Below are positions 6,745 through 64,000 of a stretch of 64,000 nt of DNA, one piece after another. Made by a program: the position numbers and the translations under genes. Within the stretch, counting starts at the first letter, position 1; every line of letters begins with the position of its first letter. The notes below the pieces were generated by a model. The model was not told the origin of the DNA. It did not search any database and saw nothing but the letters and a program-made list of their open reading frames with translations. The DNA is from a virus: the IMG/VR virus record IMGVR_UViG_3300046777_001709, positions 1 to 64,000 of that record; one strand, given 5' to 3'.

Positions 6745-6785
6745 TAAAAGCTTTTTATAATTTGATCTTCAACCGGGACAAAGGT

Positions 6786-6814
6786 AGTCTACTGTGATTA
6801 TTGGGATTTGTCAA
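6786..6814 (-). promoter_or_regulatory. Sigma-70 promoter (TTGACA-N17-TAGACT)
   Basis: Consensus TTGACA (6809-6814), a 17-nt spacer and TAGACT (6786-6791) on the minus strand, preceded by a C-run as in the promoter at 17.46 kb. Predicted transcription starts near 6779. No gene lies between it and the terminator at 6697-6722, so it yields a short RNA of about 80 nt unless polymerase reads through into the helicase gene. Confidence 0.6.
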
Positions 6815-6824
6815 GGGGGGAAGA

Positions 6825-8219: not shown

Positions 8220-8226
8220 TATTTAG
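8220..8226 (-). promoter_or_regulatory. Late-type promoter (CTAAATA)
   Basis: CTAAATA on the minus strand 21 nt before the ATG of the zinc-protein gene, overlapping the stop of the adhesin gene. It would make the zinc protein/oxygenase/cupin operon late. One base short of the T4 octamer. Confidence 0.4.
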
Positions 8227-18174: not shown

Positions 18175-18182
18175 TATTTATC
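18175..18182 (-). promoter_or_regulatory. Late-type promoter (GATAAATA)
   Basis: GATAAATA 22 nt before the ATG at 18152, overlapping the stop of the glycine-rich gene upstream. Confidence 0.5.
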
Positions 18183-22500: not shown

Positions 22501-22713
22501 TAATCCTCCAGTTATAGGAACCCAATATCTTTCTCCAGGATAACCTTCTACAGAAACAATTTGATATTGTTGTCCTAGTGGAAGAGGTGGATAAATTGCA
22601 ACAGGATCACCTAAATTTGGTTCTGCTTGACTAAGACCCAAGTAAGAATATCTATCTGTAGAAAGATTACTCTGTGGTGTTCTTTTTACCCTTCCACTCA
22701 AATACTTTGTCAT
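19546..22713 (-). CDS. Collagen-like tail fibre with collar domain
   Basis: 1055 residues. The N-terminal 500 are beta repeats (VGIGSTQPLYLLDVNGYSR and similar). Residues about 508-770 are uninterrupted G-x-y triplets dominated by GLQ, GTQ and GRQ with periodic GLTGSTGGT inserts, a bacterial-collagen-like triple helix without proline. Residues about 885-1055 match the phage tail-collar/short-fibre C-terminal fold (APSGYLTCNGASL, FNLPDLRGEFIRGWDNG, then HNHG, HAHSG, HTHTY and HSHT histidine pairs like the metal-binding HxH of T4 gp12). It is likely a trimeric receptor-binding fibre. The triplet DNA is highly repetitive, so length variation is expected. Confidence 0.85.
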   Translation of the reverse strand: MTKYLSGRVKRTPQSNLSTDRYSYLGLSQAEPNLGDPVAIYPPLPLGQQYQIVSVEGYPGERYWVPITGGLIPGSISLFEEGSLVGSLSSITQLNFVGNSINVNAIPLGIAGTITVSPPGNNGGVLFKENGDFANSSNLIFDSNVGILTVGFGLNVGYGGTIFTATSLGLVGIKTSNPTQELDVNGDIRLRGTIYDYNNNPGSNNQILTKNNFGGLIWVNQSTIRSGAGGTYQNIQFNNSAGIVDGASNFVYDEVNNRVGIGSTQPLYLLDVNGYSRFTQQVDIKNINVSGVSTLQSLGVTGLSTANNLQIYGISTLNYLNGTGANFSGIVTATKFIGSIDVTNLYVTGIATITNLGVSGVTTSKNLQVFGTSTFNQTSTTNLNVTGISTLNGAKINNITIGGNSITTPIGNLILDSSSGTTQINDALYINDTTESISKDSGSLIVEGGIGVEKSINIGNNANISGVCTVSSGIYIEGPLYDSTNNVGSASSVLISVGTGVSWAKTADVALQGIQGTQGLQGLQGRQGTQGLQGLQGRQGTQGLQGLQGTQGTQGLTGNQGLQGLQGTQGTQGLQGLQGTQGTQGLTGNQGLQGLQGTQGTQGLQGLQGTQGTQGLTGNQGLQGLQGTQGRQGTQGTQGTQGLTGSTGGTGLQGTQGTQGTQGLTGSTGGTGLQGTQGLQGTQGLTGSTGGTGLQGTQGLQGTQGTQGTQGLTGSTGGTGLQGTQGLQGTQGRQGTQGFTGSTGGTGLQGTQGTQGLTGSSGGTGLQGTQGATGSTGITIRDEGNLVGSTITTLNFIGDAVTASSPSSGVANITVTAIGNVSIGVSQVGYTCSPPITSIGSTIVIAEDSNAYGRRYIQSSQPLTACNGDLWFDTSSSTSLVPTGSVIYFATSTAPSGYLTCNGASLSTTTYSSLFAIIGYTYGGSGSSFNLPDLRGEFIRGWDNGRGIDSARVFGSAQTQSYQSHNHGITDPGHAHSGSTNTTGSHTHTYGSNSESLGPGDGGVGYPLSSTSTGAAGSHSHTLSINANTTGITIQNNGSTETRPRNIALLPCIKF
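20395..21185 (-). repeat. Collagen-like coding repeat tract
   Basis: Nearly 800 bp of tandem 9-nt units (minus strand GGT-CTT-CAA and GGT-ACT-CAA types) with longer higher-order repeats of about 100 bp that recur several times almost unchanged. It encodes the G-x-y region of the fibre. Repeats this similar promote slippage and recombination. Confidence 0.85.
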
Positions 22714-48224: not shown

Positions 48225-48946
48225 TCTTTTCTATACAAATCTTTAGTATTCCAAGTTGAGTATTCTCCCGTAAACCAGTTTTTGGGGGCGATTGTTTTTT
48301 TACTTTTTGCTAACCAAGAACCCCACCACGAAAATGACGAATTAGAGATAATATGATAATCACAAAGACTCATCAAACATAAATCAATAAATGGATTATT
48401 AGAACAGGAAAATCTGAATCTACTCCCAATAAAATTTAATTTACACCACTCTATATCATCACTAAAAATCATTACTTCTAAGTCAGGAAAATATTTGAGA
48501 GCATCATTATAGTAATCATAATCTAATAAAACAAAATTTGGATCAGTTATATAGTCTCCACGCCTAACATGAATTGCTACAACATTTTCTGAAAGAACAT
48601 TTTTTCGATAATGAAAACAACTTTTATAGATTATATCACGAAAAGTGAAATCTTTCCTCAAATCATTTTCAATATGATAAAAATATTTTTCAGTCTGAAA
48701 AAATCCATATAAGTCTCCCTCAGATGAATTAAAAATTTTTTCATCAAATTCATAAGTAGATTCTTCTAAAAATGGAGAATAAATTTTCAGTTCTTTCCTT
48801 GGAATATTAAAACATTCGTGTAGTGAAGTATTTTGAGGAAACCAATAGTCTGTGGAATTGTGCATTGATATTCCTTTCAAAGCAGCATACTGGAACATTT
48901 GGTTCCCCAATCTTCCCAAAGAACCAAGATTGCTAAAAGAAAGCAT
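48209..48946 (-). CDS. Alpha-1,2-fucosyltransferase-like (GT11)
   Basis: 245 residues of the GT11 family: GRLGNQMFQYA at 11-21, HVRRGDY at 126-132 (the GDP-binding HxRRGD motif), and the C-terminal ISNSSFSWWGSWLAK that is a family hallmark. These enzymes move fucose from GDP-fucose to a sugar 2-hydroxyl. Cyanophages occasionally encode GT11 enzymes within glycan cassettes. It starts at the stop codon of the next gene upstream (ATG/TAA overlap), and the acceptor is unknown. Confidence 0.88.
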   Translation of the reverse strand: MLSFSNLGSLGRLGNQMFQYAALKGISMHNSTDYWFPQNTSLHECFNIPRKELKIYSPFLEESTYEFDEKIFNSSEGDLYGFFQTEKYFYHIENDLRKDFTFRDIIYKSCFHYRKNVLSENVVAIHVRRGDYITDPNFVLLDYDYYNDALKYFPDLEVMIFSDDIEWCKLNFIGSRFRFSCSNNPFIDLCLMSLCDYHIISNSSFSWWGSWLAKSKKTIAPKNWFTGEYSTWNTKDLYRKDWILI

Positions 48947-49500
48947 TACTTTTCTATCATCAATACTAAAATATCATCACTAATAAAATGCTGAACTTTA
49001 TGTTTAACGAAACATTTAACAATACTTTCGAGAGTTATTTCACTCCAATCTTCAGCATAATGAGTACCAAATAAGCGATAATCATCAATTAAAATTACTC
49101 CAGTGCTTGCAAAATAAAGATTATCAATTGAAATACATTCTTCAATCAAAGGACAATCTTTATTACCCTTTGCAGTGTTACCAGAAGACCAATGTCCATC
49201 TAACCAAAAAATAACTTTATTTCTTGTTGTTAGTGTTTTTAAAATTTCTGGTAATACTTTTGCAGTATCTCCAAAATGATTTACAACATTTTGATAATTT
49301 TTTTCTTGTTTAACTTTGTCGAAATAATTATAATAATGTTCAGATAATTCTATTGTATGAAGTGTTCTGAAATGTGGTTGAAGATTAATAATTGTCTGAC
49401 CACCAAGAGTTCCAGATTCAATTAGAACATCATATTGACTTATATTTTGTTGAAATTTTTCTAATATACCGTTAACAATATCAATATTGAGAGAAGACAT
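48946..49500 (-). CDS. SAM-methyltransferase-like protein
   Basis: 184 residues with a Rossmann-like SAM-binding fold: YDVLIESGTLGGQTIINLQP (motif I, ESGT instead of the common GxGxG), LHTIELSEHYYNYF (acidic residue at the end of strand 2), VIFWLDGHWSSG and VILIDDYRLFG. Related phage and bacterial proteins are annotated as methyltransferases. Its location between two sugar-modifying genes implies methylation of a glycan. The glycine-poor motif I is atypical, so activity is uncertain. Confidence 0.65.
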   Translation of the reverse strand: MSSLNIDIVNGILEKFQQNISQYDVLIESGTLGGQTIINLQPHFRTLHTIELSEHYYNYFDKVKQEKNYQNVVNHFGDTAKVLPEILKTLTTRNKVIFWLDGHWSSGNTAKGNKDCPLIEECISIDNLYFASTGVILIDDYRLFGTHYAEDWSEITLESIVKCFVKHKVQHFISDDILVLMIEK

Positions 49501-49501
49501 T

Positions 49502-50476
49502 TTAATTAAAAATAAAGTTATTTACAGTCTTTTGTGGAATTCTTAGTAGATATGCGGCATTATCTTGAAATCCATATGTGATAATAAAATCATTGTTATA
49601 TTCAGTAAGACCACAACAAAATTCAATTTTTGCATCCATAAAAGAAAACTGGGGAGAAATTTTTACAATATTCCAATTCTTATCCCATAATACAAAACGA
49701 TGGCGATAAGTTCCATCCTTTTTTCCAGCTTCGCTATTATAGAGAGATGTTTCATGAACTACACACATTCTATATTCACCGAAAGGAATTACCTGCGATC
49801 CCCCTCTAAGATCACCACATCCTAAATCTCTCCAATTACCCAAAAAAACTTGCTTAGATGATTGAGTTTCTGGATCAACCTTGACAACTTCTGTACCATT
49901 AGTCCATTTTACATAATAGTAAGGGAGATCTGTAACTGGCATCCAGTTTTTCTCACAATAGGAATCTTTATCTACAGGAGTTGGAATACGAAACTGTGAT
50001 ACTTCTTTTACAGTAGTATTATCCAACTCCAGTTCAGAAAGTTCCATACGACCAGTGCCGATATTATCAAGGTCTCTACGTACACCAGAAACGTATAATT
50101 TATCATCCCACCTGACAATACGACAATCCTCTAATCCAACAAATTCCCACAATTCTTTATCTGGAAAACTTGATGTGTCTATACGAGAATAGTATTTTAT
50201 TCTCATATTTTCATCCAATTCGCACAGATAATTCCAAGTGCGAAGATGCATATCATTTTCGGGATGAATATAAACTAAAGGTCCCCAATGATTTTCATAT
50301 TTATTTTTTTCTGCATGATAAAGTGTATAGTTAATATTTCTTAAATTAACAAGAATTTTACCATTATCATTATATACCGAAGGATTGGTAATAGATGGTC
50401 CCATCAACTCATTATTAGGAATAATCAATGGATGTATAGAACCACCATTATCAATTGCAAATTTTACAAAATTCAT
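49502..50476 (-). CDS. GH130-like five-bladed propeller protein
   Basis: 324 residues resembling the GH130/GH43-like propeller group of glycoside phosphorylases and hydrolases: PSITNPSVYNDNGKILVNLR, FVGLEDCRIVRWDDKLYVSG, NWMPVTDLPYYYVKW, IPFGEYRMCVVHE and FCCGLTEYNNDFIITYGFQD. The EDCRI and Y-G-x-x-D-N-A elements are typical. Some relatives split mannosides using phosphate, others only bind sugars. No signal peptide, so it acts inside the cell or on the virion. It may trim or check the glycan made by the neighbours. Confidence 0.7.
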   Translation of the reverse strand: MNFVKFAIDNGGSIHPLIIPNNELMGPSITNPSVYNDNGKILVNLRNINYTLYHAEKNKYENHWGPLVYIHPENDMHLRTWNYLCELDENMRIKYYSRIDTSSFPDKELWEFVGLEDCRIVRWDDKLYVSGVRRDLDNIGTGRMELSELELDNTTVKEVSQFRIPTPVDKDSYCEKNWMPVTDLPYYYVKWTNGTEVVKVDPETQSSKQVFLGNWRDLGCGDLRGGSQVIPFGEYRMCVVHETSLYNSEAGKKDGTYRHRFVLWDKNWNIVKISPQFSFMDAKIEFCCGLTEYNNDFIITYGFQDNAAYLLRIPQKTVNNFIFN

Positions 50477-50497
50477 AAGATTTTAAATTATTAAATA

Positions 50498-50854
50498 TTA
50501 AGAAAGACTTGCAATATGTTCTTGACACATTACAATATCAGATTCAATAGACTCAATCTGTTGTTGTACTGTAAGATAATTTCCTGTTCCTTCTTCAAGA
50601 GTTGCTAGATGTGTTTGAAGTTGAGCGAGAATTTCTTGATTATTATCAATTCTTGCTTGATGCTGTTCAATATCCCATTCTACACTATAAGGTGGTGGTG
50701 TTGGATGAGTAATAGTTGCCTCGATTTCAAAAGCACCACCTTTCTCATCAATCATTGCTTGAACTTGTTCGATAGTATAACCAGTATCATTATTAGGATC
50801 AGAAGTCAAATAGTAAAGATGATCCAAAGGTAGTGTTAGTGTTGTAGTTTTCAT
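50498..50854 (-). CDS. Small coiled-coil protein in the glycan cassette
   Basis: 118 residues from the ATG at 50854, chosen for GGAGG 8 nt upstream and the TAATG overlap with the preceding gene; the frame runs on to 50914 without a better start. The first half is a small beta-type domain (TLTLPLDHLYYLTSDPNNDT); the second half is a coiled coil (RIDNNQEILAQLQTHLATLE). No family recognised. It may be a scaffold for the glycosyltransferases around it, or a small virion protein. Confidence 0.55.
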   Translation of the reverse strand: MKTTTLTLPLDHLYYLTSDPNNDTGYTIEQVQAMIDEKGGAFEIEATITHPTPPPYSVEWDIEQHQARIDNNQEILAQLQTHLATLEEGTGNYLTVQQQIESIESDIVMCQEHIASLS

Positions 50855-51882
50855 TAAAATTTCCTCCAAAGTTCTTTTGAAAATTGTACCCAGTCTTGTA
50901 CTCTGGTTTCCCAACTATAATATTTATTGGATATTTCTACTTGTTGAGTACTATCGAATTCACCATTTCTGTATTCGGTAATGGTTCTTTTAAGTTCTCT
51001 CGTAAATCTTTCAATATGTTTTTGGCGATCTGGAATAAAACCATAATGTCTCGCAAACCCAAGACCAGTTTCGGGTAGGGCAGCAAGATTGGAAGAAAGA
51101 ACAGAGCAACCAGCACACAATGCTTCAATCATACAAATACAGGAAGTCTCCATAAAGTAAGTAGGGTAAGCAAAAATATGAGTATTCAACAGTTGCTCAC
51201 GAATCTTAGAGTTGTTAGTACGTGTGTGACGAACAACTCTCTTATCTTCATTTGCAAGTTTCAAACAATAACGAAGAAACTGCTCTTCTTGTGGATTAAT
51301 ATGTGCATATTCGTAGGTTTGAAGACCTTGCTGATATTGGTTCTTTCTTTCATCAGGGTCAATTTCGTGAAAAATATGAAGTTCAAAGTCTTCTTCTGGA
51401 ATGAGTTTAATACTTTCAAGAAGAATATCCAAACCACGAATAGGATTTGAATGGAACATCAATTGCAGTTTTCCTTCTGGTTTCTTATGAACTGGGAATG
51501 GTTGTGTTGCATTTTTAAGAACAAAACACTTTTCCATTGGTAGTTGAAGTCGTTCACCAAATCTTTCATACTGCCAATTAGAAACAAAAACATATGCCTT
51601 AAAATGCTTTTGAAACTCTTTATCCAGCAGTCTTTCGATACCCTCTTCCATATGATGAGGGTGTAACCAGACAATATTAGAACTATCGGGAGATAGAGTA
51701 TTGTCGCCTGGAATAACTGCCCAGTGCCAATCAGCAAGGTCAGGAGCAGCAGGAAGAACATAATCCTGCCAGGCACGACCCATAATTTCAGTACCTCCTA
51801 CTCCATCGGGATTAAGAACTGCTTCCAGAAGAGGAGGCATATTATTGTGTAAGTATTCTGGTTTTGTGACAACTTTTTTCAT
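50854..51882 (-). CDS. GT4-family glycosyltransferase
   Basis: 342 residues of GT-B fold. The N-terminal half includes VLNPDGVGGTEIMGRAWQDY (the G-G-T-E nucleotide-sugar loop) and NIVWLHPHHMEEGIERL. The C-terminal half holds FHSNPIRGLDILLESIKLIP and the E-x7-E element ETSCICMIEALCAG, the hallmark of GT4. These enzymes transfer sugars from nucleotide donors to glycans. It overlaps the next gene upstream by 4 nt, part of the continuous cassette. Confidence 0.82.
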   Translation of the reverse strand: MKKVVTKPEYLHNNMPPLLEAVLNPDGVGGTEIMGRAWQDYVLPAAPDLADWHWAVIPGDNTLSPDSSNIVWLHPHHMEEGIERLLDKEFQKHFKAYVFVSNWQYERFGERLQLPMEKCFVLKNATQPFPVHKKPEGKLQLMFHSNPIRGLDILLESIKLIPEEDFELHIFHEIDPDERKNQYQQGLQTYEYAHINPQEEQFLRYCLKLANEDKRVVRHTRTNNSKIREQLLNTHIFAYPTYFMETSCICMIEALCAGCSVLSSNLAALPETGLGFARHYGFIPDRQKHIERFTRELKRTITEYRNGEFDSTQQVEISNKYYSWETRVQDWVQFSKELWRKF

Positions 51883-52721
51883 AGTACCTCTTTCAAAAAG
51901 TTTTCCATTGGTGATTTTTTAAAAATTTCTAGTCCTTTTTCTGTTTGGGCATCTAGTTCTTCTGGTTTTTTAAGAAGTTTATAAACAGTGTCTACAAAAC
52001 TATTATAAGTTGAAGTGAATACTGTTCCTTCCATATAGTCGGGGAAATCTGTATCTGGATTTCTTTCACAAATTACAGGAACTTTATTCTGGATAAGATG
52101 AGTGACTCTTACCATCTCAAAGATTTGATTATCGTGATTATGTAGGTTAATCACAAGTTTTGCTCTTTTAATTAGTTCATCCCTCGCATCACCATAAGTT
52201 GATTGAACTGCAACAAAATTGATATTTTTATTATTAGCAAACTGTTTCATAATGTACTCTCTGCGAGGAGAGGGGGAAAGATAAGCAAGAATATCAATGT
52301 CCCTTTGTTCTGGTTTATTGCGTTCAAAGTATGAAATCTCTGGAACATAACCAATCTTAAAATGTTTAATATTTTCTACTCCTGCTTTACGAAGAACATC
52401 AACATTTCTCATAGAGTAATCCCATACCTCAAGACCACGGTACTTACGACACCATCTTATACATTCTGGTTGGTCTCTCATTTGTTCCAAAGAATATATG
52501 ATTGTATCTTTTGGAATATCGTGTCTTACTACATCAACAGGACAATGGTGCATTCCAAAAACAATGTTTCTTCTATCAGTCTTAAAATCATTGACACTAT
52601 TAGTTACATCATAACCTAATTTTTGTAGTGAAAAAAATACTGCTGCCTCAATCTCATGAAAGACTTGTGCATGAACATCAAACCCATTATCTGGCACAAT
52701 GCGAACTAAATTAAACTTCAT
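51879..52721 (-). CDS. GT-B glycosyltransferase-like protein
   Basis: 280 residues. Strand-helix patterns such as NIVFGMHHCPVDVV and IIYSLEQMRDQPECIRWC precede a C-terminal Rossmann half with RDIDILAYLSPSPRREYIMK, LVINLHNHDNQIFEMVRVTH (E at the nucleotide-binding helix) and VPVICERNPDTDFPDYMEG. This matches bacterial CgeB-type and GT1-like transferases. The N-terminal domain is short, so the acceptor is unclear. It overlaps neighbours by ATGA on both sides. Confidence 0.7.
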   Translation of the reverse strand: MKFNLVRIVPDNGFDVHAQVFHEIEAAVFFSLQKLGYDVTNSVNDFKTDRRNIVFGMHHCPVDVVRHDIPKDTIIYSLEQMRDQPECIRWCRKYRGLEVWDYSMRNVDVLRKAGVENIKHFKIGYVPEISYFERNKPEQRDIDILAYLSPSPRREYIMKQFANNKNINFVAVQSTYGDARDELIKRAKLVINLHNHDNQIFEMVRVTHLIQNKVPVICERNPDTDFPDYMEGTVFTSTYNSFVDTVYKLLKKPEELDAQTEKGLEIFKKSPMENFLKEVL

Positions 52722-54145
52722 TTAATAAACTCCTCAAAGTTTTTATTAATTTCATTAATAATATTAATATCTTTGGATACAACACCTAAACCGTTACAAT
52801 GCTTAAAATTTGTTTTTGGTAGATTGATTTCATTAAAGAATCTATTCACACCAAACTCTGGATTATCTACCATCGTATCATGCATAAGAATTATACCACC
52901 TTCTTTTAAAAATGGAGTCCATTTGTCAAAATCATTTTTAACTGATACATAATCGTGCATTCCATCAATATGGAGAATATCAATAGGTTTGTTCCAGATT
53001 TTTACTACATCATCAAAATATCCTTTAATAAAGGTAATATTATTTAATTCTAGTTCTTTTTGCTTTTCTAGTACATAATCATAAGTATTTCTTACCCCAG
53101 CAAATGGATCTCCTTCAAAACTATCAATCCCATAGATATGTCCTTTTTGGGCAAGTGCAAAACAAAATGTAGAATATCCATAATCCACACCTAAATCAAC
53201 GACTGTTTCTGGTTCTATTCTACGAACTAACCAATCAGCAAATCGTCTATGATCTTTCCAATTAAAGTTATTTTGACTTCCAACTTCAATTAGAATATCA
53301 AGTTTATTTTTCACATAAGTGGTTTCATTTTTTTCAACATCTTCACGATACATTTCTGGCGGATAGTATGTAAAATACCTTTCTAATCCTTGATTATCAT
53401 ATTGATGATGACGACGATAATGGAAGCAGTGTTGTTTTGGAAGACCTGTTGCCATCCAGAGTTCAAAGCAATATCGATAGTTTTGTAATTCTCTCATCAT
53501 CGCTTCTAAATCCATATACTCTTCAATTTTTAATGGATGTTTAAGTTTACGGATATAATCATTTCGTGCCCACCAAAAGTTTCCTGCATAGTGCTGAACC
53601 ACGAAATCAAGTTTAATGTCGTGCCTTTCTACCCAATCAACTCCACAACAATCATATCCTTCATCAAGTTTAGCAATACAATCTTCCCACTTTTCGATAT
53701 TATAGTATTGCATATAGTGACGCCAATCTTTTATTGCGCCAGGAATATGAGTTGAATAAGAACTCATTCCTTTATTGTGGAAATAGAAAACATATCCATC
53801 ATTGTTTAAACAATGCTCATAAATTTTTTCAAGAGTTTGTCCTTCATAAAAATTTGGTTGTTCTCCCGTATTTCTCATATCAATAATATTTACAAATGGA
53901 AATCTATCATTGATATAACCAGTCACCATTTCATTATAAGAATGACCAGTTTTAGAATTATACAGACCAAGTGGAAGAGTGATACACATGTTTATGGTTG
54001 CCTTATCAGCAAGACCAGTAGATTTTAACAGACTCATCTGTTCATCAACCCACCAAATCCACATATTATTTGTATCTGGAATGAATAGATGATAAAAAAC
54101 AACAATCATTTTGTTCAATTTTTTTTCGTTTTTGTAATTCAACAT
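52718..54145 (-). CDS. Glycosyltransferase-methyltransferase fusion
   Basis: 475 residues. The N-terminal 270 resemble a phage/bacterial glycosyltransferase-like domain (YINDRFPFVNIIDMRNTGEQ, HNKGMSSYSTHIPGAIKDWR, YAGNFWWARNDYIRKL). The C-terminal 190 are a class I methyltransferase: TVVDLGVDYGYSTFCFAL (motif I), HIYGIDSFEGDPFAG, and DILHIDGMHDYVSVKNDFDK with GGIILMHDTM, a methyltransf_24-type pattern. The fused pairing implies that the sugar transferred is then methylated. The upstream boundary is soft: ATG at 54145 overlaps the previous gene by 7 nt; an ATG at 54109 is an alternative. Confidence 0.72.
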   Translation of the reverse strand: MLNYKNEKKLNKMIVVFYHLFIPDTNNMWIWWVDEQMSLLKSTGLADKATINMCITLPLGLYNSKTGHSYNEMVTGYINDRFPFVNIIDMRNTGEQPNFYEGQTLEKIYEHCLNNDGYVFYFHNKGMSSYSTHIPGAIKDWRHYMQYYNIEKWEDCIAKLDEGYDCCGVDWVERHDIKLDFVVQHYAGNFWWARNDYIRKLKHPLKIEEYMDLEAMMRELQNYRYCFELWMATGLPKQHCFHYRRHHQYDNQGLERYFTYYPPEMYREDVEKNETTYVKNKLDILIEVGSQNNFNWKDHRRFADWLVRRIEPETVVDLGVDYGYSTFCFALAQKGHIYGIDSFEGDPFAGVRNTYDYVLEKQKELELNNITFIKGYFDDVVKIWNKPIDILHIDGMHDYVSVKNDFDKWTPFLKEGGIILMHDTMVDNPEFGVNRFFNEINLPKTNFKHCNGLGVVSKDINIINEINKNFEEFIK

Positions 54146-54834
54146 ACAATATGACTCTTAACGTGACCAACAATAATATTAGGATCTACAAATACTTTAT
54201 GACCTTGCTCTGCAACTCTTTCACAAAAGTATAAATCTTCTCCCAATGGAAGTTCGTAAGTAACACCATCAATTTCTTGAATGACTTTACCAAGGCTAAA
54301 CCATGGTCTTTTGAGTGATTCAAAAATACCGGACTTTACACACATAAACCCAAGACCAACTCCATAAACCTCAAGTGGTTCACCAAGTTGTTGAAGAATT
54401 TGTATTTCTTCTCTCTTCATTGGTTTGAAATCATCTTTTTGTCGATGAATCATTGCGTCTGCTCCCTGTGCTTCAAAATAAACAGCAGAAATGACACTCT
54501 TATCACTGGAATATAACCTTAAAAACTGCTCTGGATTCCAGAGAATATCACTATCAATCATAAAAAGTTTGTCGTATGTATATTGACCTTTTCCTGGTGA
54601 AGAATTAAAAACTTCTAAATTACGACTTCCAGTAATAGTTGCTTCTCTAGCATTTGTAACCAAGGAAGCATATTCATTTTGGTAAATCCAAGAAATATTA
54701 TTTGCTTGAAGTGTATGAATAGTTGAGATTAAACACTTTACATAATCAGCACACATTGAGTTTCCTGGTGTTGTGATGACTACATTAAAGTGTGGTAATG
54801 TTGCTTGTTGAGGTGAATTGTAATAATTTAACAT
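54139..54834 (-). CDS. GT-A glycosyltransferase-like protein
   Basis: 231 residues from the ATG at 54834; the frame extends upstream only by overlapping the neighbour. Pattern: HFNVVITTPGNSMCADYVKC, YDKLFMIDSDILWNPEQFLR (DSD metal site), ISAVYFEAQGADAMI, and EDLYFCERVAEQGHKVFVDP (ED catalytic region). It is a paralogue of the next gene, sharing the same order of motifs. Such small GT-A proteins transfer sugars to glycans or proteins. Confidence 0.75.
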   Translation of the reverse strand: MLNYYNSPQQATLPHFNVVITTPGNSMCADYVKCLISTIHTLQANNISWIYQNEYASLVTNAREATITGSRNLEVFNSSPGKGQYTYDKLFMIDSDILWNPEQFLRLYSSDKSVISAVYFEAQGADAMIHRQKDDFKPMKREEIQILQQLGEPLEVYGVGLGFMCVKSGIFESLKRPWFSLGKVIQEIDGVTYELPLGEDLYFCERVAEQGHKVFVDPNIIVGHVKSHIVC

Positions 54835-54839
54835 AAAAT

Positions 54840-55562
54840 TTACAGAATAATCATTTTTTGATGACCGACACGAACTTTTGGATGAACCCAAATATCAAAA
54901 CCATATTTTTTAAAGTCCTGACACATTGAGATATCTTCGGAACAAACATCCTCAAGAATTGTTCCGTCAGGTTTTTGAAGTTGAATCACACGAGGAACAA
55001 ACCAAGGATAAGGTATTTTCTCATAAACACCTTTTTTAATCAATATCCACCCAAAACCACAATAGTCCACTTTAAATGGTTCTGTTCTTCTTGCCATATC
55101 TTCAACAGTCTCATAACGATTTGAACCCTTTTCATAAAGTTCTTGGTCGTTCATAGATTCAACAACGGTGGTTTGATTAGAAAGTGCTCCACCATTTGAT
55201 TGACAATACCAACCAGCAGAAATATCTTTATTCATTTTTAGAAGTTCCATCAAGTCTTCTGTCTTGAAGATGATATCACTATCAATCCACATGATATAGT
55301 CATAAGGAACTTTTCCCCTAAAAGGAGTCAGCATTGTTCCTGCATAATTATCTGCTTGTAAACAATCAGTTCTGGCATGATTCACCATTGAACTGTATTG
55401 TTGAGAGATATAAAAATTAATTCCTTGTTGATTGAGGTCAAATAAAAGTCTTACAAATTGTGTCATAAAGGTTCCAGAATACATTAATCCTGGAAGACAA
55501 AATGCGATTGTTTTTCCTTTAAGACTTGTGTTTGAAGATTGATTTGTATAATTTAACGGCAT
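54840..55562 (-). CDS. GT-A glycosyltransferase-like protein
   Basis: 240 residues: GKTIAFCLPGLMYSGTFMTQ, FYISQQYSSMVNHARTDCLQ, YDYIMWIDSDIIFKTEDLME (DSD site), ISAGWYCQSNGGALSN, and CSEDISMCQDFKKYGFDIWV. It is the first gene of the cassette and lies 45 bp downstream of the propeller-adhesin gene, with no promoter visible between, so it may be co-transcribed late with the tail genes. Paralogue of the gene at 54139-54834. Confidence 0.75.
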   Translation of the reverse strand: MPLNYTNQSSNTSLKGKTIAFCLPGLMYSGTFMTQFVRLLFDLNQQGINFYISQQYSSMVNHARTDCLQADNYAGTMLTPFRGKVPYDYIMWIDSDIIFKTEDLMELLKMNKDISAGWYCQSNGGALSNQTTVVESMNDQELYEKGSNRYETVEDMARRTEPFKVDYCGFGWILIKKGVYEKIPYPWFVPRVIQLQKPDGTILEDVCSEDISMCQDFKKYGFDIWVHPKVRVGHQKMIIL

Positions 55563-55607: not shown

Positions 55608-58310
55608 TTACCACCAGGTAATTTTTACATATCCATCTCCACCATTTCCACCAATTCCAAATTTATTTTGTTCTATAGAGTATCCACCGCCGCCGCCGCC
55701 ACCTCCTCGGGTGCCGTTCCCTCCATTTCCTGCTACTGATGCGATTGTTGAGATTGCAGTAAGTATAGTACCACTAGCACCACCAGCAACATAAGTATTA
55801 TTTCCAAAAGTAAGTTCTGTTAAACTACTAGACGAACCAGTTGTTCTTGCAGTCCAAACAATAGCATTTGTTGATGTGGTTAATCCCCCAGTATTGGCGC
55901 AGATAACATAAGTAGCATTTCCAAATGTTAAGGCATTGTTAGTTGATAATCCAGAAGTTCTTAAAGACCAGTTAATTGCATCTGTTGATGCAGATATATA
56001 TGCACCACCACCAAGGAAATAAGTATTATTCGCAAAAAGAGATGCAGCAATACCAGCAGTAGTACCAGCAGTTCTTAAAGTCCAAACAATAGCATCTGTT
56101 GAAGTGGAAATAATTCCATTATTAGCGGCAACAATATAAATACCGTTTCCAAAACTACTCGTACTAATAGTATTAGTACCTGCAATCCCAGAAGTTCTTA
56201 TAGTCCAGTTAATTGTATCTGTTGATGATCTTATTGTTGCTTGAGTACCAGAAACAACATAAGTACTGTTGCCAAACATGAGCGCATTAGCAGTACTTGC
56301 GCCAAGACTAGAAGTTCTTAAAGTCCAGTTAATTGCATCTGTTGAGGTACCTAAAGATCCACTATTACCAGCAGCAACATAAGTACTGTTTGCAAAGATG
56401 AGTGCATTAAATTGTGAAATATTACCAGAAGTTCTTATAGTCCAATTTATTGCATCTGTTGAGGTACTTAATACACTAGAAGCACCAGTAGCAACATAAG
56501 TATTATTTCCAAAAGTAAGAGCACTAACAGCATTAGTAGCAAAACCAGCAGTTCTTGTATACCAACTATTTAAACCGGTACTCAAAGCACCTCCGCCACC
56601 TCCACCAGAACCATAAGAACCAGTATAAGATCCAGGAATACCATCACCACCATTTCCACCAGTTTCACTTCCACCATTTGTATAAGTATTTCCATAATAA
56701 TAAGTAGTCGCACTACCCCCAGGCCTAGTATTCATTGCACCACTTCCGCCACCAGTCACTTGGAATCTGTTTGCTTGTGTTGAGTCATTTGAACCAAAAC
56801 CAGAAGAAAATCCATTACCACCAGCAAGACCAGCAGAAGTTAAAAGAGGATTGAGTGTGACTGATGCTGCGGGAGCGGCGGTTCCTGATGTAATTGCATT
56901 ATCACTTGCACCACCACCAGAAGAAGAAGATAATGTATAAGTTGCAGTACCTGTTGGAGTGTTTCCAGTCCAAGTGACCGTTGTAGAACCACCAGAAGAA
57001 CCACCACCAGAAGAATAACCACCAGCAACAAAGGTGGTTCCATAGGTTAAAGCAAGAATGCCTTGTCCTTGGAAAAGTGAAGTTCTTGAAGTCCAAACAA
57101 TTGCATTTGTTGAGGTATTTAAGATTCCAGTATTACTAGAAGCAACATAAGTACTGTTTGCGAAGATGAGTGCATTAATATTACTAACACCAAAACCAGA
57201 AGTTCTTAAAGTCCAATGAATTGTATCTGTTGAGGTATTTAAGATTCCACTTTGACCAGCAGCAAAATAATTATTGTTCGCAAAGGTGAGTGTACTAATA
57301 TTATTAGTACCAAAATTAGCAGTTCTTAAAGTCCAAACAATTGCATCTGTTGATGAACTTAAGAGTCCATTACCACCACTAACGACATAAGTACTGTTTC
57401 CGAAAGTGAGTGCATAAATTAAATTAGTAGAAAAACCAGAAGTTCTTAAAGTCCAAGTGATTGCATCTGTTGAAGTATTTAAGACTCCAAAATTACCACC
57501 AGCAATATAAGTATTATTTGCAAAGGTTAGTGCATTAATATTAGAAGTAGTACCAGCAGTTCTTAAAGTCCAAACAATTGCATTAGTTGAAGTATTTAAT
57601 CTCCCACCATTAGCGCCAGCAACATAAGTACTGTTTCCAAAGGTGAGCGCAAGAATAATATTAGTACCAAAACCAGGAGTTCTTGAAGTCCAAGTGATTG
57701 CATCTATTGAGGTACTTAAGACTCCACCAGAACCAGCAGCAACATAAAGACTGTTTGCAAAGATGAGTGAGTAAATGATACTAGTAAAAAACTGACTATT
57801 TTGTTGTATCCAATTAATACCATCAGTACTGATACTCATACCACGATTGTTTCCACCAAGACCACCAGCACCAGGTGTCACAGTCATCGTAGAAGCATTT
57901 CCAAGTTCTCCACGACGAATCAACCAGGCATTATAAGCACCTCCACCTCCTCCACCACCAGAACCGATTGTTCCTACGGGTCGTCCTGATGCTCCACCAC
58001 CTCCAGCACCGATTGCTTCAATATAAAACTGTGTTGCTGTTGGGGGAATAAAAAATGTTTGTGATACTGGTGTTGTAAACTCTTGAAAACCTTTATATGT
58101 TACTGGATCTGTTGATGAGGTTGTTGAAGAGTTTATGGGTTCCCAGGTTTTTTGATCTGCTTGGACTGCTAAAAATTTTCCAGCATTTCCAGTTGTACTT
58201 GGAAGTGTATTATTATCAATATATTGATCAACATACTGTCGGTTTACTGCATCAGTTGCATTAGATACTACACTTACACCAGTAACTTTATTGCTGTCTA
58301 ATGTCGCCAT
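55608..58310 (-). CDS. Giant tail adhesin with two 7-repeat propeller blocks
   Basis: 900 residues. The N-terminus (DSNKVTGVSVVSNATDAVNR) is a tail-fibre-type repeat shared with two paralogues, then a Gly-rich scaffold begins (EAIGAGGGGASG). Residues about 158-428 hold seven approximately 40-residue units, each with an Asp-box-like S-T-D-A-I-x-W-T and a strand A-L-T-F-G-N-x-T-Y-V-A-G. A Gly-rich stretch with FSSGFGSNDS and TGGGSGAMNTRPGGSA follows, then another seven units (about 580-855), and a Gly-rich end GGNGGDGYVKITWW. Seven such units normally close one beta-propeller. I infer two propellers in a glycine-rich adhesin of the tail. The repeat counts are mine, by eye. Confidence 0.75.
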   Translation of the reverse strand: MATLDSNKVTGVSVVSNATDAVNRQYVDQYIDNNTLPSTTGNAGKFLAVQADQKTWEPINSSTTSSTDPVTYKGFQEFTTPVSQTFFIPPTATQFYIEAIGAGGGGASGRPVGTIGSGGGGGGGAYNAWLIRRGELGNASTMTVTPGAGGLGGNNRGMSISTDGINWIQQNSQFFTSIIYSLIFANSLYVAAGSGGVLSTSIDAITWTSRTPGFGTNIILALTFGNSTYVAGANGGRLNTSTNAIVWTLRTAGTTSNINALTFANNTYIAGGNFGVLNTSTDAITWTLRTSGFSTNLIYALTFGNSTYVVSGGNGLLSSSTDAIVWTLRTANFGTNNISTLTFANNNYFAAGQSGILNTSTDTIHWTLRTSGFGVSNINALIFANSTYVASSNTGILNTSTNAIVWTSRTSLFQGQGILALTYGTTFVAGGYSSGGGSSGGSTTVTWTGNTPTGTATYTLSSSSGGGASDNAITSGTAAPAASVTLNPLLTSAGLAGGNGFSSGFGSNDSTQANRFQVTGGGSGAMNTRPGGSATTYYYGNTYTNGGSETGGNGGDGIPGSYTGSYGSGGGGGGALSTGLNSWYTRTAGFATNAVSALTFGNNTYVATGASSVLSTSTDAINWTIRTSGNISQFNALIFANSTYVAAGNSGSLGTSTDAINWTLRTSSLGASTANALMFGNSTYVVSGTQATIRSSTDTINWTIRTSGIAGTNTISTSSFGNGIYIVAANNGIISTSTDAIVWTLRTAGTTAGIAASLFANNTYFLGGGAYISASTDAINWSLRTSGLSTNNALTFGNATYVICANTGGLTTSTNAIVWTARTTGSSSSLTELTFGNNTYVAGGASGTILTAISTIASVAGNGGNGTRGGGGGGGGYSIEQNKFGIGGNGGDGYVKITWW

Positions 58311-58332
58311 TTACTTCTATTCTCCGTAATGG

Positions 58333-58340
58333 TATTTATT
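58333..58340 (-). promoter_or_regulatory. Late-type promoter (AATAAATA)
   Basis: AATAAATA 22 nt before the ATG of the 900-residue adhesin, overlapping the stop of the next adhesin. Confidence 0.5.
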
Positions 58341-60130
58341 TACCACCAAGTAATTTTAACATAACCATTTCCACCATTACCCCCATTACCAAAAGAAGAT
58401 CCATTGGTTGCTCCACCACCTCCACCACCTCCACGAACTCCATTACCACCGTTTGCTGCAATAGAAACACTTGCTCCACCTCCACCTCCACCATAACCAT
58501 AAGGAAGTCCAGAGATTGCTACTGCATTTGTTCCGTTAGTTCCTGATGAAGTTCCCCCAGATGCTGATGTGGTAATTCCATAAACATTAATTGAACCTCC
58601 AGAACCACCAGCACTTGAAGTAGAACCAGCACCACTTCCACCACCTGTTGGTTGGAATTGATTGGTTTGTGCTGTTGCAGTGATACCCGCACCAATTGCA
58701 GATTCATTTCCACCATAAAGACCTGCAGTGGTATAAAAAGAACTTGATTGACTTGTAAGTTGTGCTGCTCCTGGTGCTATTACTGAACCACCAGATGCCG
58801 TAATTGTATAAGTTCCTCCAGGACCAGACCAAGATACTATAGTTTCTGTTCCTGCAGAACCTGTTGCTGCATCTGTAGTTCCTCCTACTCCACCAACACC
58901 AGGATTGACTGTGATGTTTGAGGTTACAATTGACTTTGGAATGTACCAAGAAGTATAAGAACCTGATGCTCCTCCTTGTCCTGATACTTGTGAGTATGAG
59001 GTAGTTAATCTCCCACTAGCACCACCAGCAACATAAGTATTATTACCAAAAGTAAGAGCACTAATAGTATTAGTACCAAAACCAGAAGTTCTTAAGGTCC
59101 AAGCAATTGTGTTGGTTGATGTATTTAAGACTCCCAAATAACCACCAGCAACATAAGTATTACCACCATAGGTAATAGCATCAATATCACTAGTAAACCC
59201 AGAAGTTCTTAAAGTCCAAACAATTGCGTCTGTTGAGATACTTAGATATCCATTTTGACCTCCAGCAATGTAAATATTGTTTGCATAAGTAAGAACAAAA
59301 ATAGAATTAGACCCAAAACCAGAAGTTCTTAAAGTCCAAGTGATTGCGTCTGTTGAGGTATTTAATTTTCCAGCACCACCAGCAACATAAGTATTATTTC
59401 CAAAAGTAAGAGTATTAATATTATTAGCAACAATACCAAAACTAGCAGTTCTTAAGGTCCAAGTGATTGCATCTGTTGATGTGTTCAATACTCCACGAGA
59501 ACCAGCAGCAATATAAAAAGTTGTATAAGTAAGGGCATTAATATCATCAATAGAAAAACTTGACGTTCTTAAGGTCCAAGTAATTGTGTCTGTTGAAGTG
59601 GTTAATCTTCCATTAGTACCACCAGCAAGATAAGTAGTATCACTATAAGTAAGAGAAAGAATAGCATTAGAACCATGACTTGAAGTTCTTAAGGTCCAAG
59701 TGATTGCATCTGCTGATGTATTTAATCTTCCAGTATTACTAACAGCAATATAAGTATCATTACCAAAAATAAGAGCATTAATATTATCACCAAAACTAGC
59801 AGTTCTTATGGTCCAAGTAATTGCTGACTGTGCTGTGGTTTGTCCGGCACTCCCCCCACCACCAGCACCTACTGCTTCAATATACAAAAGATTTGCATAA
59901 CTTGGAACATTAAAAGTCTGTTCTCCAGGTGTCGTAAATTCTTGGTAGTTAGAAACATAATCCCAAGAAAGATTCGTTCCATCAGTTGTTGTAAGAAACT
60001 TACCAGTATTTCCAGTTTGCGATGGTAGTTCTTGAATATTTGCATCTACATAGTTTTTATTAACCACATCAGTCGGTTCAAATATAGATGTAGTAATACC
60101 AGAAATAAAATTAGAACCTGCGGTTGTCAT
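58340..60130 (-). CDS. Tail adhesin with one 7-repeat propeller block
   Basis: 596 residues, paralogue of the genes on both sides. The N-terminal attachment part (SNFISGITTSIFEPTDVVNK) is followed by EAVGAGGGGSAG, after which seven Asp-box-like units run from about residue 97 to 382 (SAITWTIRT to NTIAWTLRTSGFGTN, each ending in a Y-V-A-G-G-type strand). The rest is scaffold: SGQGGASGSYTSWYIPKS, VNPGVGGVGG, GGSGAGSTSSAGGSGG and the end GGNGGNGYVKITWW. It has only one propeller block, sitting earlier in the scaffold than the first block of the 900-residue paralogue. No catalytic residues are recognised. Confidence 0.75.
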   Translation of the reverse strand: MTTAGSNFISGITTSIFEPTDVVNKNYVDANIQELPSQTGNTGKFLTTTDGTNLSWDYVSNYQEFTTPGEQTFNVPSYANLLYIEAVGAGGGGSAGQTTAQSAITWTIRTASFGDNINALIFGNDTYIAVSNTGRLNTSADAITWTLRTSSHGSNAILSLTYSDTTYLAGGTNGRLTTSTDTITWTLRTSSFSIDDINALTYTTFYIAAGSRGVLNTSTDAITWTLRTASFGIVANNINTLTFGNNTYVAGGAGKLNTSTDAITWTLRTSGFGSNSIFVLTYANNIYIAGGQNGYLSISTDAIVWTLRTSGFTSDIDAITYGGNTYVAGGYLGVLNTSTNTIAWTLRTSGFGTNTISALTFGNNTYVAGGASGRLTTSYSQVSGQGGASGSYTSWYIPKSIVTSNITVNPGVGGVGGTTDAATGSAGTETIVSWSGPGGTYTITASGGSVIAPGAAQLTSQSSSFYTTAGLYGGNESAIGAGITATAQTNQFQPTGGGSGAGSTSSAGGSGGSINVYGITTSASGGTSSGTNGTNAVAISGLPYGYGGGGGGASVSIAANGGNGVRGGGGGGGATNGSSFGNGGNGGNGYVKITWW

Positions 60131-60143
60131 TTATTTACCCTCC

Positions 60144-62822
60144 CTAGTACCAACTAATACGTACATAACCATCACCACCAGTACCACCAGTACCTACGGT
60201 ATTCGTGGTTTCCTCATAACCACCACCCCCGCCGCCACCACCTTTAGAACCATCACCCCCATTTCCTGCAAAAATTTGAGAATTTGAAGTACTTAATGTT
60301 CCAGAAAGACCACCAGCAACATAAGTATTGTTTCCAAAAGTAAGTTCTTGAATAGAATTAGCACCAAAACTAGAAGTTCTTAAGGTCCAAATGATTGCAT
60401 CTGTTGATGTGTTCAATACTCCACCAGAACCAGCAGCAATATAAGTATTATTATTAAAAATAATAGAATTAATTTGATTACCAGATAAACGAGAAGTTCT
60501 TAAGGTCCAAGTGATTGCATCCGTTGAGGTGTTTAATTTTCCAGATTGACCACCAACTAGATAGGTATTATTTGCAAAAGTAAGAGCATAAATAAAATTA
60601 CTAGCTATACCAAAACTAGCAGTTCTTAAGGTCCAAGTGATTGTATCTGTTGATGTGTTTAATCTTCCAGTACCACCAGCAGCAACATAAGTATTATTAC
60701 CAAAAGTAAGAGCAAAAATAGAATTAGTGGCAAAACCAGAAGTTCTTAAAGTCCAAGCGATTGCATTTGTTGAGATACTTAGATATCCATTTTGACCTCC
60801 AGCAATGTAAATATTGTTTGCATAAATGAGAGCATAAATTAAATTAGCACCAAAACCAGAAGTTCTTAAAGTCCAAGTGATTGCGTCTGTTGAAGTGCCC
60901 AATGCTCCACTATCACCAGCAACAACATAAGTATTATTATCGAAAGTAAGAGCATTAATACCAATATTACCAAAACCAGAAGTTCTTAAAGTCCAAGTGA
61001 TTGCGTCTGTTGAAGTATTTAATCTTCCACCACTGGCGCCAGCAACATAAAATGATGAATAAGTAAGAGCATTAATAGTATTAGTACCAAAACTAGAAGT
61101 TCTTAAGGTCCAAATAATAGGAGCAATTGATGATGAACTTCCACCACCACTTCCACCACCACCATAAGACAGACCAGTAATATTTAATCCTGTACTTCCG
61201 TCGATTTGATTCGATAGAGTTCCTGATATATTACTATAATAGTTAATTACTCCTCCAGCGCCACCAACAAGAGCAGTATCAGAAGTATATGCCCCACCTC
61301 CACCACCAGAGGTTTGAAATATTAATGTGGTAGCTGGTGCAGAAAATGCAGCAGTTGTTTGATTTACAAATCCTGGAGCACCAGTAGAACCGTTAGATAC
61401 TTGGAGATAATTTGTAGAATTTTCAGGTATTATTCCACCATTACCACCCAATGCTAAACCAGTATTACTTCCAGGACTTCCACCATTTACTGTAACTGAA
61501 TGAGTTCCTAATGGTCCAGTCCAAGATATTGTAGTTCCGGCACCAGCAGTTCCAGCAGTTCCACCAGCACCGATACTTACAGATAATGAAGACCCTGTGA
61601 TTTGATCTTTAGAAAGTATCCAAGATGCTGATGCTCCTCCACCACCTCCACCACCTGAGAATCCAAATATAGTAGTTGTGGAAGTTCTTAATGTTCCAGC
61701 ATTACCACCAGCAAGATAAATATTGTTTCCAAAGGTAAGAGCATTAGCATTTTGATTCTCAAAAACTGCAGTTCTTAAAGTCCAAGTGATTGCATCTGTT
61801 GATGTAGATAAGAATCCAGTAGAACCCGCAGCAAGATAAGTATTATTACCAAAAGTAAGAGCACTAATAGTATTAGTACCAAAACCAGAAGTTCTTAAAG
61901 TCCATTCAATTGCATTTGTTGATGTAGATAAGATACCAGCATTACCAGCAGCAACATAAGTACTATTTGCATAAATAAGATCATTAATACTATTATTACC
62001 AAAACCAGAAGTTCTTAGGGTCCAAGTGATTGCATCTGTTGAAGTGGTTAAGAATCCAGCATTACCACTAGCATTATAAGTACTATTTGTAAAAGAAAGA
62101 GAAAAAATTTGATTACCACCAAAACCAGAAGTTCTTAGGGTCCAAACAATTGCGTTTGTTGAAGTGGTTAAGAATCCAGCAGAACCCCCAGCAAGATAAA
62201 ATGTCGAATAAGAAAAAGCACTAATAGTATTAGTACCAAAACCAGAAGTTCTTAAAGTCCATTCAATTGCATTTGTTGATGTAGATAAGATACCAGCATT
62301 ACATCCAACAACATAAAGTCCTCCAATATATTCAACATCACTAATAGTATTAGTTCCGGCAATTCCACTAGTTCTTAAAGTCCAATTAACAGAATCCGTT
62401 GTTGTTGATATTATTGCTTGAGTACCAGCAAGAATATAAATACCGTTTGCAAAAGTTAAAGTATTACCATTACTAGCTCCAATAGCAGAAGTTCTTGAAA
62501 TCCAAATACTTGCACTAACATAAGAACTTCCATCAATATTTCCACTTGCTCCACCACCACCTGCACCAGTTGCTTCTATTAGAAATTCTTTTGCTTGTAA
62601 TGGTAAGTTAAATGTATAAGTTCCCGCCGTTGTATATTCTTGAGTTGCTTGAATTTGTTCCCAAGATACAACACTTCCATCTGTAAAGAGAAATTTATTT
62701 TCATTTCCAGAAATGCTTGGAATTAATCCTTTACTATCCAAATATCCTTTATAAGCAGCATCAGTTCCACTTGTTACAGTAGAAATTCCTGTAATTAAAT
62801 TAGAACCAATCTCAACAGACAT
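60144..62822 (-). CDS. Giant tail adhesin with two 7-repeat propeller blocks
   Basis: 892 residues. N-terminus GSNLITGISTVTSGTDAAYK, then EATGAGGGGASGN. The first block of seven Asp-box-like units spans about 102-381, and a second block of seven about 564-849. Between them is a glycine-rich scaffold (SGGGGGGGASASWILSKDQI, GAGGTAGTAGAGTTISWTGP, SYGGGGSGGGSSSS), and the C-terminus ends GGTGGDGYVRISWY. Units are almost identical at the DNA level in places (TDAITWTLRTSGFG). The first unit of each block lacks the Asp-box (SASIWISRT, IAPIIWTLRT), as expected where a propeller is closed. GGGGG precedes the ATG as a ribosome-binding site. Confidence 0.75.
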   Translation of the reverse strand: MSVEIGSNLITGISTVTSGTDAAYKGYLDSKGLIPSISGNENKFLFTDGSVVSWEQIQATQEYTTAGTYTFNLPLQAKEFLIEATGAGGGGASGNIDGSSYVSASIWISRTSAIGASNGNTLTFANGIYILAGTQAIISTTTDSVNWTLRTSGIAGTNTISDVEYIGGLYVVGCNAGILSTSTNAIEWTLRTSGFGTNTISAFSYSTFYLAGGSAGFLTTSTNAIVWTLRTSGFGGNQIFSLSFTNSTYNASGNAGFLTTSTDAITWTLRTSGFGNNSINDLIYANSTYVAAGNAGILSTSTNAIEWTLRTSGFGTNTISALTFGNNTYLAAGSTGFLSTSTDAITWTLRTAVFENQNANALTFGNNIYLAGGNAGTLRTSTTTIFGFSGGGGGGGASASWILSKDQITGSSLSVSIGAGGTAGTAGAGTTISWTGPLGTHSVTVNGGSPGSNTGLALGGNGGIIPENSTNYLQVSNGSTGAPGFVNQTTAAFSAPATTLIFQTSGGGGGAYTSDTALVGGAGGVINYYSNISGTLSNQIDGSTGLNITGLSYGGGGSGGGSSSSIAPIIWTLRTSSFGTNTINALTYSSFYVAGASGGRLNTSTDAITWTLRTSGFGNIGINALTFDNNTYVVAGDSGALGTSTDAITWTLRTSGFGANLIYALIYANNIYIAGGQNGYLSISTNAIAWTLRTSGFATNSIFALTFGNNTYVAAGGTGRLNTSTDTITWTLRTASFGIASNFIYALTFANNTYLVGGQSGKLNTSTDAITWTLRTSRLSGNQINSIIFNNNTYIAAGSGGVLNTSTDAIIWTLRTSSFGANSIQELTFGNNTYVAGGLSGTLSTSNSQIFAGNGGDGSKGGGGGGGGYEETTNTVGTGGTGGDGYVRISWY

Positions 62823-62823: not shown

Positions 62824-64000
62824 TCATTTACCCCCTTCTAATATTTTTTCTAAATCCTTTATTTTTCTATTTTGATCTTTAATTGCTTCAATTAAAAGAC
62901 CAACAATATTACCATAGGCAACAGATTTAGTTTCATCACCATAAACAACATCAGGAATAATTTTTTCAACTTCCTGAGCAATTACACCAATTTGATGCTC
63001 TCCATTATCTATACGATCATATTCAACTCCACGAAGAGATAATACCTTATTTAATGCGTTATCAATAGTTTTAATATTTATTTTAAGTTTTTCATCAGAA
63101 TTTGCAGTTACAGTTCCACCAACAACCATATTTCCTGTTGATGGGTTAAAAGTTAATTTTGTAGAAGATACATTTATTGTAGATACCGTTCCACTAGTAG
63201 TATCATCAAATAGCAGATATCTTGTAGCATTTGTAGAAGTGTCGTCAACAACACTTATAGATCCTCCACTACCGCCACCACCAGTAATATTAATAGTAGT
63301 AATTCCTGAAACTGGTGTGGTAATTGTAGAAACTCCCGCACCTCTAAAATCAATTAAGGTAATTCCTACACCTACAATACCCCCAAATGTTGCGATTCCA
63401 ACTCCACCATTATTGTTTCCTTGAATTCCTTGTAGTCCTTGTGTACCTTGAGTACCTTGACGACCCTGAAGTCCTTGAATACCTTGAGTACCTTGAGAAC
63501 CTACAGCACCTTGAGAACCAATAGATCCCTGAGTGCCTTGAAGACCCTGGAGTCCTTGAAGTCCCTGGAGTCCTTGAGAACCAACAGTACCTTGAGAACC
63601 TACAGTACCTTGAGAACCAATGGCACCTTGAGAACCTACAGTACCTTGAGTACCCTGAAGTCCTTGAAGTCCTTGAGAACCAACAGTACCTTGAGAACCT
63701 ACAGTACCTTGAGAACCTACAGCACCTTGAGAACCAATAGATCCCTGAGTGCCTTGAAGACCCTGGAGTCCTTGAAGTCCTTGAGAACCAATGGTACCTT
63801 GAGAACCTACAGTACCTTGAGAACCAATAGATCCTTGAGTACCTTGACGACCTTGGAGTCCTTGAAGTCCCTGAAGACCTTGTGATCCAACGGCACCTTG
63901 AGAACCTACAGTACCTTGAGCACCAATTGCACCTTGAGTACCAATGATACCTTGAGATCCGATAGCACCCTGAGATCCTACAGAACCTTGAGCACCAATG
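62824..64000 (-). CDS. Collagen-like fibre with S74 domain (5' end outside window)
   Basis: An open minus-strand frame from the window edge to 62824, at least 391 residues. Its first part (to about 63415) is unbroken G-x-y repeats (GAQ, GSV, GSQ, GTV, GLQ units), followed by a beta-rich linker (GNNNGGVGIATFGGIVGVGI) and the C-terminal S74 chaperone: NSDEKLKINIKTIDNALNKV, LSLRGVEYDRID, IGVIAQEVEKIIPDVV, SVAYGNIVGLLIEAIKD and a coiled end. S74 domains fold fibre trimers and then self-cleave. The Ser/Lys-containing SDEKLK region includes the cleavage site. A start at 63129 is only an internal Met. Confidence 0.85.
   Translation of the reverse strand, partial: IGAQGSVGSQGAIGSQGIIGTQGAIGAQGTVGSQGAVGSQGLQGLQGLQGRQGTQGSIGSQGTVGSQGTIGSQGLQGLQGLQGTQGSIGSQGAVGSQGTVGSQGTVGSQGLQGLQGTQGTVGSQGAIGSQGTVGSQGTVGSQGLQGLQGLQGLQGTQGSIGSQGAVGSQGTQGIQGLQGRQGTQGTQGLQGIQGNNNGGVGIATFGGIVGVGITLIDFRGAGVSTITTPVSGITTINITGGGGSGGSISVVDDTSTNATRYLLFDDTTSGTVSTINVSSTKLTFNPSTGNMVVGGTVTANSDEKLKINIKTIDNALNKVLSLRGVEYDRIDNGEHQIGVIAQEVEKIIPDVVYGDETKSVAYGNIVGLLIEAIKDQNRKIKDLEKILEGGK
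63415..64000 (-). repeat. Collagen-like coding repeat tract at window edge
   Basis: Tandem G-x-y codons from about 63415 to the window end, with recurring approximately 110-bp blocks (GLQ-GLQ-GLQ-GTQ-GSI-GSQ-type order). The tract continues beyond the window, so its full length is unknown. Confidence 0.85.

Follow-up and report, generated by a model that had tools for sequence, protein, structure and literature searches.

The window analyzed here is a whole 64,000-nucleotide stretch of viral DNA (positions 1 to 64,000 of IMG/VR record IMGVR_UViG_3300046777_001709). Three consecutive paralogous genes lie on its minus strand: P0001 (900 aa; 55608..58310), P0002 (596 aa; 58340..60130), and P0003 (892 aa; 60144..62822). 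A first-pass annotation had described repeat units of about 40 residues in these genes, counted as 7 and 7, 7, and 7 and 7, and this count was confirmed by two approaches. When the translations were cut at the repeat W, 35 units were obtained, which formed five blocks of exactly seven (7 + 7 in P0001, 7 in P0002, and 7 + 7 in P0003) with a spacing of 38 to 42 residues between repeat W residues. A hidden Markov model of the unit delimited these five blocks as well (P0001, residues 160-434 and 577-849; P0002, residues 99-376; P0003, residues 101-378 and 565-844) and matched nothing else in the three proteins. At the DNA level, the blocks are arrays with a period of about 117 to 120 bp.

Outside the blocks, the three proteins are Gly rich, with a common N-terminal segment and a Gly-rich end. 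In P0003, the N-terminal segment (TDAAYKGYLD...; 62532..62822, minus strand) runs into the Gly-rich scaffold, which separates the two blocks (61140..61661, minus strand). When the scaffolds were aligned, the insertions fell at fixed positions: site 0 lies in the N-terminal region, site A after GAGGGG, site B after VTPGAGGLGG, and site C before the last Gly-rich stretch. The blocks, all on the minus strand, occupy sites B (56973..57839) and C (55734..56591) in P0001, site A in P0002 (58979..59842), and sites A (61662..62531) and C (60267..61139) in P0003. Two empty sites could be recognized from the aligned scaffolds, both on the minus strand. Site 0 of P0001 (58161..58166) reads GNAGKFLAV / QADQKTWEPINSS, and the 7, 14, 21, or 42 units of its relatives sit exactly there; site C of P0002 (58466..58471) reads YGYGGGGGGASV / SIAANGGNG and is occupied in P0003-type genes.

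These proteins had been proposed to be Gly-rich tail adhesins. The Gly-rich nature of the scaffold held, and its assignment to the tail drew weak to moderate matches. Gly_rich_2 (PF21722) scored 22.0 and 18.3 bits, below the gathering score of 24.3, and the matches of the scaffold to PHROG tail families were near or below the cutoff. The best Foldseek match of a P0003 model was the tail tip of Bxb1 (PDB 9d93), reached via the scaffold (probability, 0.92; E value, 0.0019), and a weak one was the Pam3 fiber; gp38 was absent from the matches of this model, which is only partly confident. A sequence search of the scaffold against PDB gave no match to solved structures, and scaffold-only pieces used as queries found no annotated phage. 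The upstream neighbor (62824..63999, minus strand; the gene runs past the end of the window) encodes a collagen-like tail fiber with a C-terminal Peptidase_S74 chaperone domain. We took P0001 to P0003 to be tail adhesins, presumably displayed on the virion.

Other genes of the window were noted as well. Directly downstream of the adhesin genes (45333-55562), the translations revealed, by eye, a cluster of glycosyltransferase-like and methyltransferase-like genes, which could modify virion or host glycans. Two more Gly-rich proteins, without propellers and without NCBIfam matches, are encoded at 8223-9341 and 18178-19077. A long collagen-like fiber with repeated GTQGLQG-type units and, by eye, a collar-like domain at its end is encoded at 19546-22713.

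Repeat motif and predicted fold of the blocks

The units had been read as Asp-box repeats of the form S-x-D-x-G-x-x-W. The motif found in the window is S-T-(D/N)-(A/T)-I-x-W-T-x-R-T. The short Asp-box (s-Asp-box) was published as S/t-x-D/n-x-x-x-W, in a hairpin joining the third and fourth strands of a blade (Quistgaard and Thirup 2009, PMC2716378). This pattern was fitted by 31 of the 35 window units and by 1223 of 1363 units in relatives, and according to the structure prediction for a block, the box is positioned between the third and fourth blade strands. The classical Asp-box (BNR), S-x-D-x-G-x-T-W, was not found, as the box in the window is one residue shorter and Gly is present in only 1 of the 35 units. 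Therefore, the identification of an Asp-box propeller repeat stood, but its form had to be changed from the classical box to the s-Asp-box.

In no known propeller do all blades carry a box; because the last blade is usually closed by the N-terminal strand, a propeller of n blades has at most n-1 boxes with a 1+3 Velcro closure (PMC2716378). Each of the four box-less units of the window opens one of the four blocks starting at strand D, as predicted by such a closure. In most blocks, the strand order D-A-B-C...A-B-C indicates that the first strand closes the ring on the last blade. The block at site B of P0001 starts one strand earlier, at strand C, keeps the box in 7/7 units, and ends after strand B, for which a 2+2 closure is probable. 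The more variable portions of the unit include the B-C loop and the final part of the D-A loop.

The fold was then predicted with AlphaFold2 from a window block (58991-59833, in P0002) with an 85-row block alignment. The block was predicted, with high confidence, to be a closed seven-bladed propeller of 28 strands (pLDDT, 93.7; pTM, 0.91); a solenoid was not predicted. When the predicted block was submitted to Foldseek, 1,481 PDB chains were matched at an E value of ≤0.001, and those among the matches listed were all propellers, including seven-bladed WD40-type, WRAP-type, and Ycf48 propellers, with TM scores of up to 0.82 (a seven-bladed WRAP design). A profile search of PDB with sequence alone matched the designed propellers Tako8/Ika8 (E value of about 1e-12, and 1e-7 with a broader alignment). 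The WD40 Pfam family had no match among the 85 blocks; the likeness to WD40 and WRAP propellers is at the level of fold and register only. The best structural matches of the block also included a collagen-repeat protein of a giant virus (Hokovirus; BFVD A0A1V0SF56), with 30% identity. Kelch_1 scored above its cutoff for P0002 and P0003 as wholes, over short partial stretches; this match, YidC, and other weak family matches were set aside as probable low-complexity or fold-level echoes. In a full-length model of P0003, built with a 16-row alignment, the scaffold was partly confident and the propellers were unfolded (pLDDT of about 26 to 35), perhaps because a deep, well-registered alignment was wanting; the confident fold model is that of a single block by itself. 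Based on these predictions, the view that the window blocks are closed seven-bladed β-propellers is well supported.

Relatives, unit counts, and nested runs

Relatives were collected as loci on metagenomic viral contigs in two scans, one with P0001 and the other with the block alignment as the query. A scan with P0003 recovered no relatives, its patterns being too specific, and a single block searched against genome contigs matched distant repeats at just four loci, all bacterial, including two from Paenibacillus. These two (L091 and L092) encode bacterial proteins with 12 to 13 related units, 33 to 37% identical to the window block. A related stand-alone propeller was also seen among collagen-like genes of Actinomycetia phage DSL-LC01 (L095; OQ999401.1, 3049-3921). 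It is annotated as a photosystem II assembly factor and is probably a tail module named for its resemblance to Ycf48. PhoH was common to 18 of 20 records, with 78 to 87% identity, and psbA/psbD-type genes were present in 10 of the 14 relative records tested; therefore, the relatives belong to a cyanophage clade. No psbA/psbD-type gene was found within the window's own fragment, and its nearest named relatives are T4-like cyanophages too. Judging from the shared core genes, and from psbA/psbD in the relatives, the group is that of the T4-like cyanophages.

Next, the units were counted in all runs uncut by contig ends, the window blocks included. There were 70 runs of 7 units, 8 of 14, 4 of 21, 4 of 28, 1 of 35, 2 of 42, and 1 of 49. 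Other counts were found in 25 uncut runs, mostly 6 or 8 units, a few of which came from distant bacterial proteins; several but not all of the 6s and 8s could be resolved to 7, either because the unit HMM gave 7 where a weak unit had been missed or because a scaffold W had been counted in. The relatives thus group as sevens, most of the uncut runs having 7 units or a multiple thereof, up to 49, and the earlier suggestion that seven is no chance count was borne out. In a few cases, the run adjoins or lies within a domain other than the Gly-rich scaffold, namely, Phage Tail Collar (PF07484), for which the matches were weak to moderate. These are two runs of 21 units (L070:1721-4555 and 4462-7299), two of 14 (L083:5809-7758 and L084:5788-7710), and one of about 6 (L089:1261-2340), and none had clear entry or exit signals.

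In the long runs of relatives, outside the window, short and long unit spacings alternated in the manner of brackets, and twelve of these runs could be read as propellers nested in propellers, up to four levels deep. A simple parse that relied on both the missing box and thresholds for the spacing yielded 83 sevens but misread long loops as exits; it was superseded by a strict test. In the strict test, entries were taken from the missing Asp-box alone and exits were predicted by the seven-blade rule, which avoids circularity; runs with unfitting unit or entry counts were set aside, and 12 runs qualified and gave a consistent parse. All 27 predicted exits fell at a spacing of 53 to 60, and all 27 entries fell at a spacing of 32 to 36; the remaining 207 steps had spacings of 38 to 55, with only two of them at 52 or more. 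The totals of L083 and L084 fitted, yet neither run could be parsed. With a cruder parse, 42 of 87 were sevens, whereas shuffling of the entry and exit positions (20,000 trials) gave 4.45 sevens on average and never more than 16. A guest entered only after blade 1, 2, or 3 of its host (8, 8, and 11 cases, respectively). It started right after host strand B, and host strand C resumed on return, which places the insertion in the B-C loop. The longest examples had 77 units, or 11 propellers, in one protein (L015) and 70 units (L025).

Since repeats assemble poorly and every long example is a metagenomic contig, the long nested genes could be assembly artifacts. This is extremely improbable, as the same long genes recurred in contigs of different data sets (L025/L026/L027/L032, L015/L041, and L016/L033), their frames stay open for more than 3,000 codons, and the bracket grammar balances. 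The units could also adopt an open solenoid fold or a long tandem one, seven being merely a frequent duplication length. The unfolded blocks of the full-length P0003 model and the 14- and 21-unit runs lacking entry and exit signals in a tail-collar host (L070, L083, and L084) would suit such a fold. However, a closed ring was predicted at a pLDDT of 93.7, exact sevens recur at many sites with the Asp-box gone from the first unit only, and a host keeps its seven blades despite interruption by a guest, so that we regard an open fold as very improbable. Nested propellers are the reading that we retain. The architecture is likely recursive, with propellers serving as both cargo and landing site and modules moving between genes, sites, and levels, thereby changing host recognition. 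In phage tail adhesins, it would probably extend to four levels and, in a single chain, to as many as 11 propellers (77 blades).

Exchange of propellers and their putative function

In the aligned scaffolds of the relatives, whole propellers were present or absent at fixed sites. Scaffold identity was higher than propeller identity in 10/10 pairs of P0002-type genes and higher than that of both propellers in 61 of 78 pairs of P0003-type genes. For example, the scaffolds of L055 and L009 were 90% identical and their site C propellers 96%, versus 57% for the site A propellers, which indicates that one module was replaced. Guests 75 to 76% alike were found at different positions in different genes. 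When P0003 was compared with its relatives, blades at the same position were hardly more alike than blades at other positions. Part of the faster change of the propellers could stem from relaxed constraint, or from recombination driven by the repeats, and not from selection by a receptor.

The propellers might be mainly structural, as spacers or assembly surfaces among tail proteins, with a turnover that is neutral recombination between near-identical repeats. Repeats of 120 bp favor recombination, the weak positional likeness of the blades is in line with it, and amplification of blades is known to have produced highly repetitive propellers again and again, in many lineages (PMC9218822). However, neutral slippage should often break multiples of seven, whereas the count survives swapping and nesting, and the swapping of one whole propeller next to an unchanged neighbor resembles module replacement. 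A mainly structural role is thus possible but unlikely. Alternatively, the propellers could be enzymes that degrade surface glycans and not binders, like the six-bladed phage endosialidase (GH58) or the tandem propellers of GH74. Phage tail proteins often bear depolymerases. In addition, most of the structurally characterized Asp-box propellers are glycosidases (PMC2716378). Nevertheless, no block matched any glycosidase family, the blades are nearly uniform, and no block-specific conserved catalytic set was noticed in an unsystematic inspection of the alignments, making an enzymatic role improbable.

We consider it very likely that the blocks are receptor-binding modules which are carried by Gly-rich tail adhesins and can be exchanged and inserted recursively, virion display and binding being the conjectural parts; the counts, fold, sites, nesting grammar, and exchange behind this proposal come from sequence or prediction. 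In our model, each of the three paralogous tail adhesins of a T4-like cyanophage would begin with a short N-terminal segment followed by the Gly-rich scaffold. The chain would leave the scaffold at fixed loops (0, A, B, and C), build a complete s-Asp-box propeller with seven blades (about 280 residues), and reenter the scaffold. The propellers would be held out on the scaffold as receptor-contact modules, each most likely offering its variable face to the receptor. Whole propellers would be gained, lost, and swapped while the scaffold stays in place, and in relatives a guest would be inserted, recursively, into the B-C loop that follows the first, second, or third blade of a host propeller. 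Exchange, loss, and nesting would change the surfaces that the phage can hold, and host-range variation may be the reason for the turnover.

Little is known about how cyanophages in the wild recognize their hosts, and tail adhesins are mostly unreadable from sequence. The candidate recognition domains described here are 280-residue modules with exact boundaries that can be compared between phages. A domain recursively inserted into its own kind, with the number of blades kept at each level, would, if true, represent an unusual way for proteins to evolve, and the nesting would be a natural test of how well a ring fold tolerates insertions.

Comparison with known systems

Several known systems share single features with these adhesins. 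The published Asp-box and s-Asp-box propellers have the same box in the same hairpin place, the n-1 rule, and the 1+3 Velcro closure, and seven-bladed members are known; the s-Asp-box examples are, however, five bladed with few boxes, whereas here the box is present in six of seven blades (PMC2716378). Insertion of foreign domains into Asp-box propellers is also known and was classified into organizational types 1 to 4, none of which is a propeller inside a propeller, still less a recursive one (PMC2716378). The endosialidase of phage K1F (GH58) is likewise an Asp-box propeller in a tail protein (PMC2716378) but, unlike those of the window, has six blades and two boxes and is an enzyme. A propeller in a phage receptor-binding protein is also found in gp45 of Staphylococcus phage phi11, where a cavity was proposed for GlcNAc; this protein has one five-bladed propeller per chain, forms a homotrimer, and uses another scaffold (PMC4901313). 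In gp38 of Salmonella phage S16 and of T-even phages, Gly-rich motifs likewise hold variable host-recognition segments in loops, and the variable loops between these motifs relate to host range (PMC6851490). The gp38 segments are short hypervariable loops, whereas the scaffolds described here hold entire domains of 280 residues or trees of such domains.

The other likenesses are more distant. The tail tip chain of Bxb1 (PDB 9d93) belongs to a siphophage of another host, and its weak match is to the scaffold, with the propellers unmatched. Related propellers occur in tail proteins of cyanophages, in the baseplate wedge initiators of S-SSM7, S-CAM9, and DSL-LC03, but at only 18 to 27% identity and in another gene. 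In DDB1-type proteins, a propeller chain is interrupted by another propeller, but at a single level, in a cellular protein with diverged blades and a fixed architecture. In the literature that we searched, neither nested propellers nor the Asp-box combined with phage tails was described, which does not by itself establish novelty. Taken singly, the fold, the box, propellers in phages, and adhesins rich in Gly all have precedents; their combination, and above all the recursive nesting, would lie outside the four organizational types of Asp-box propellers (PMC2716378).
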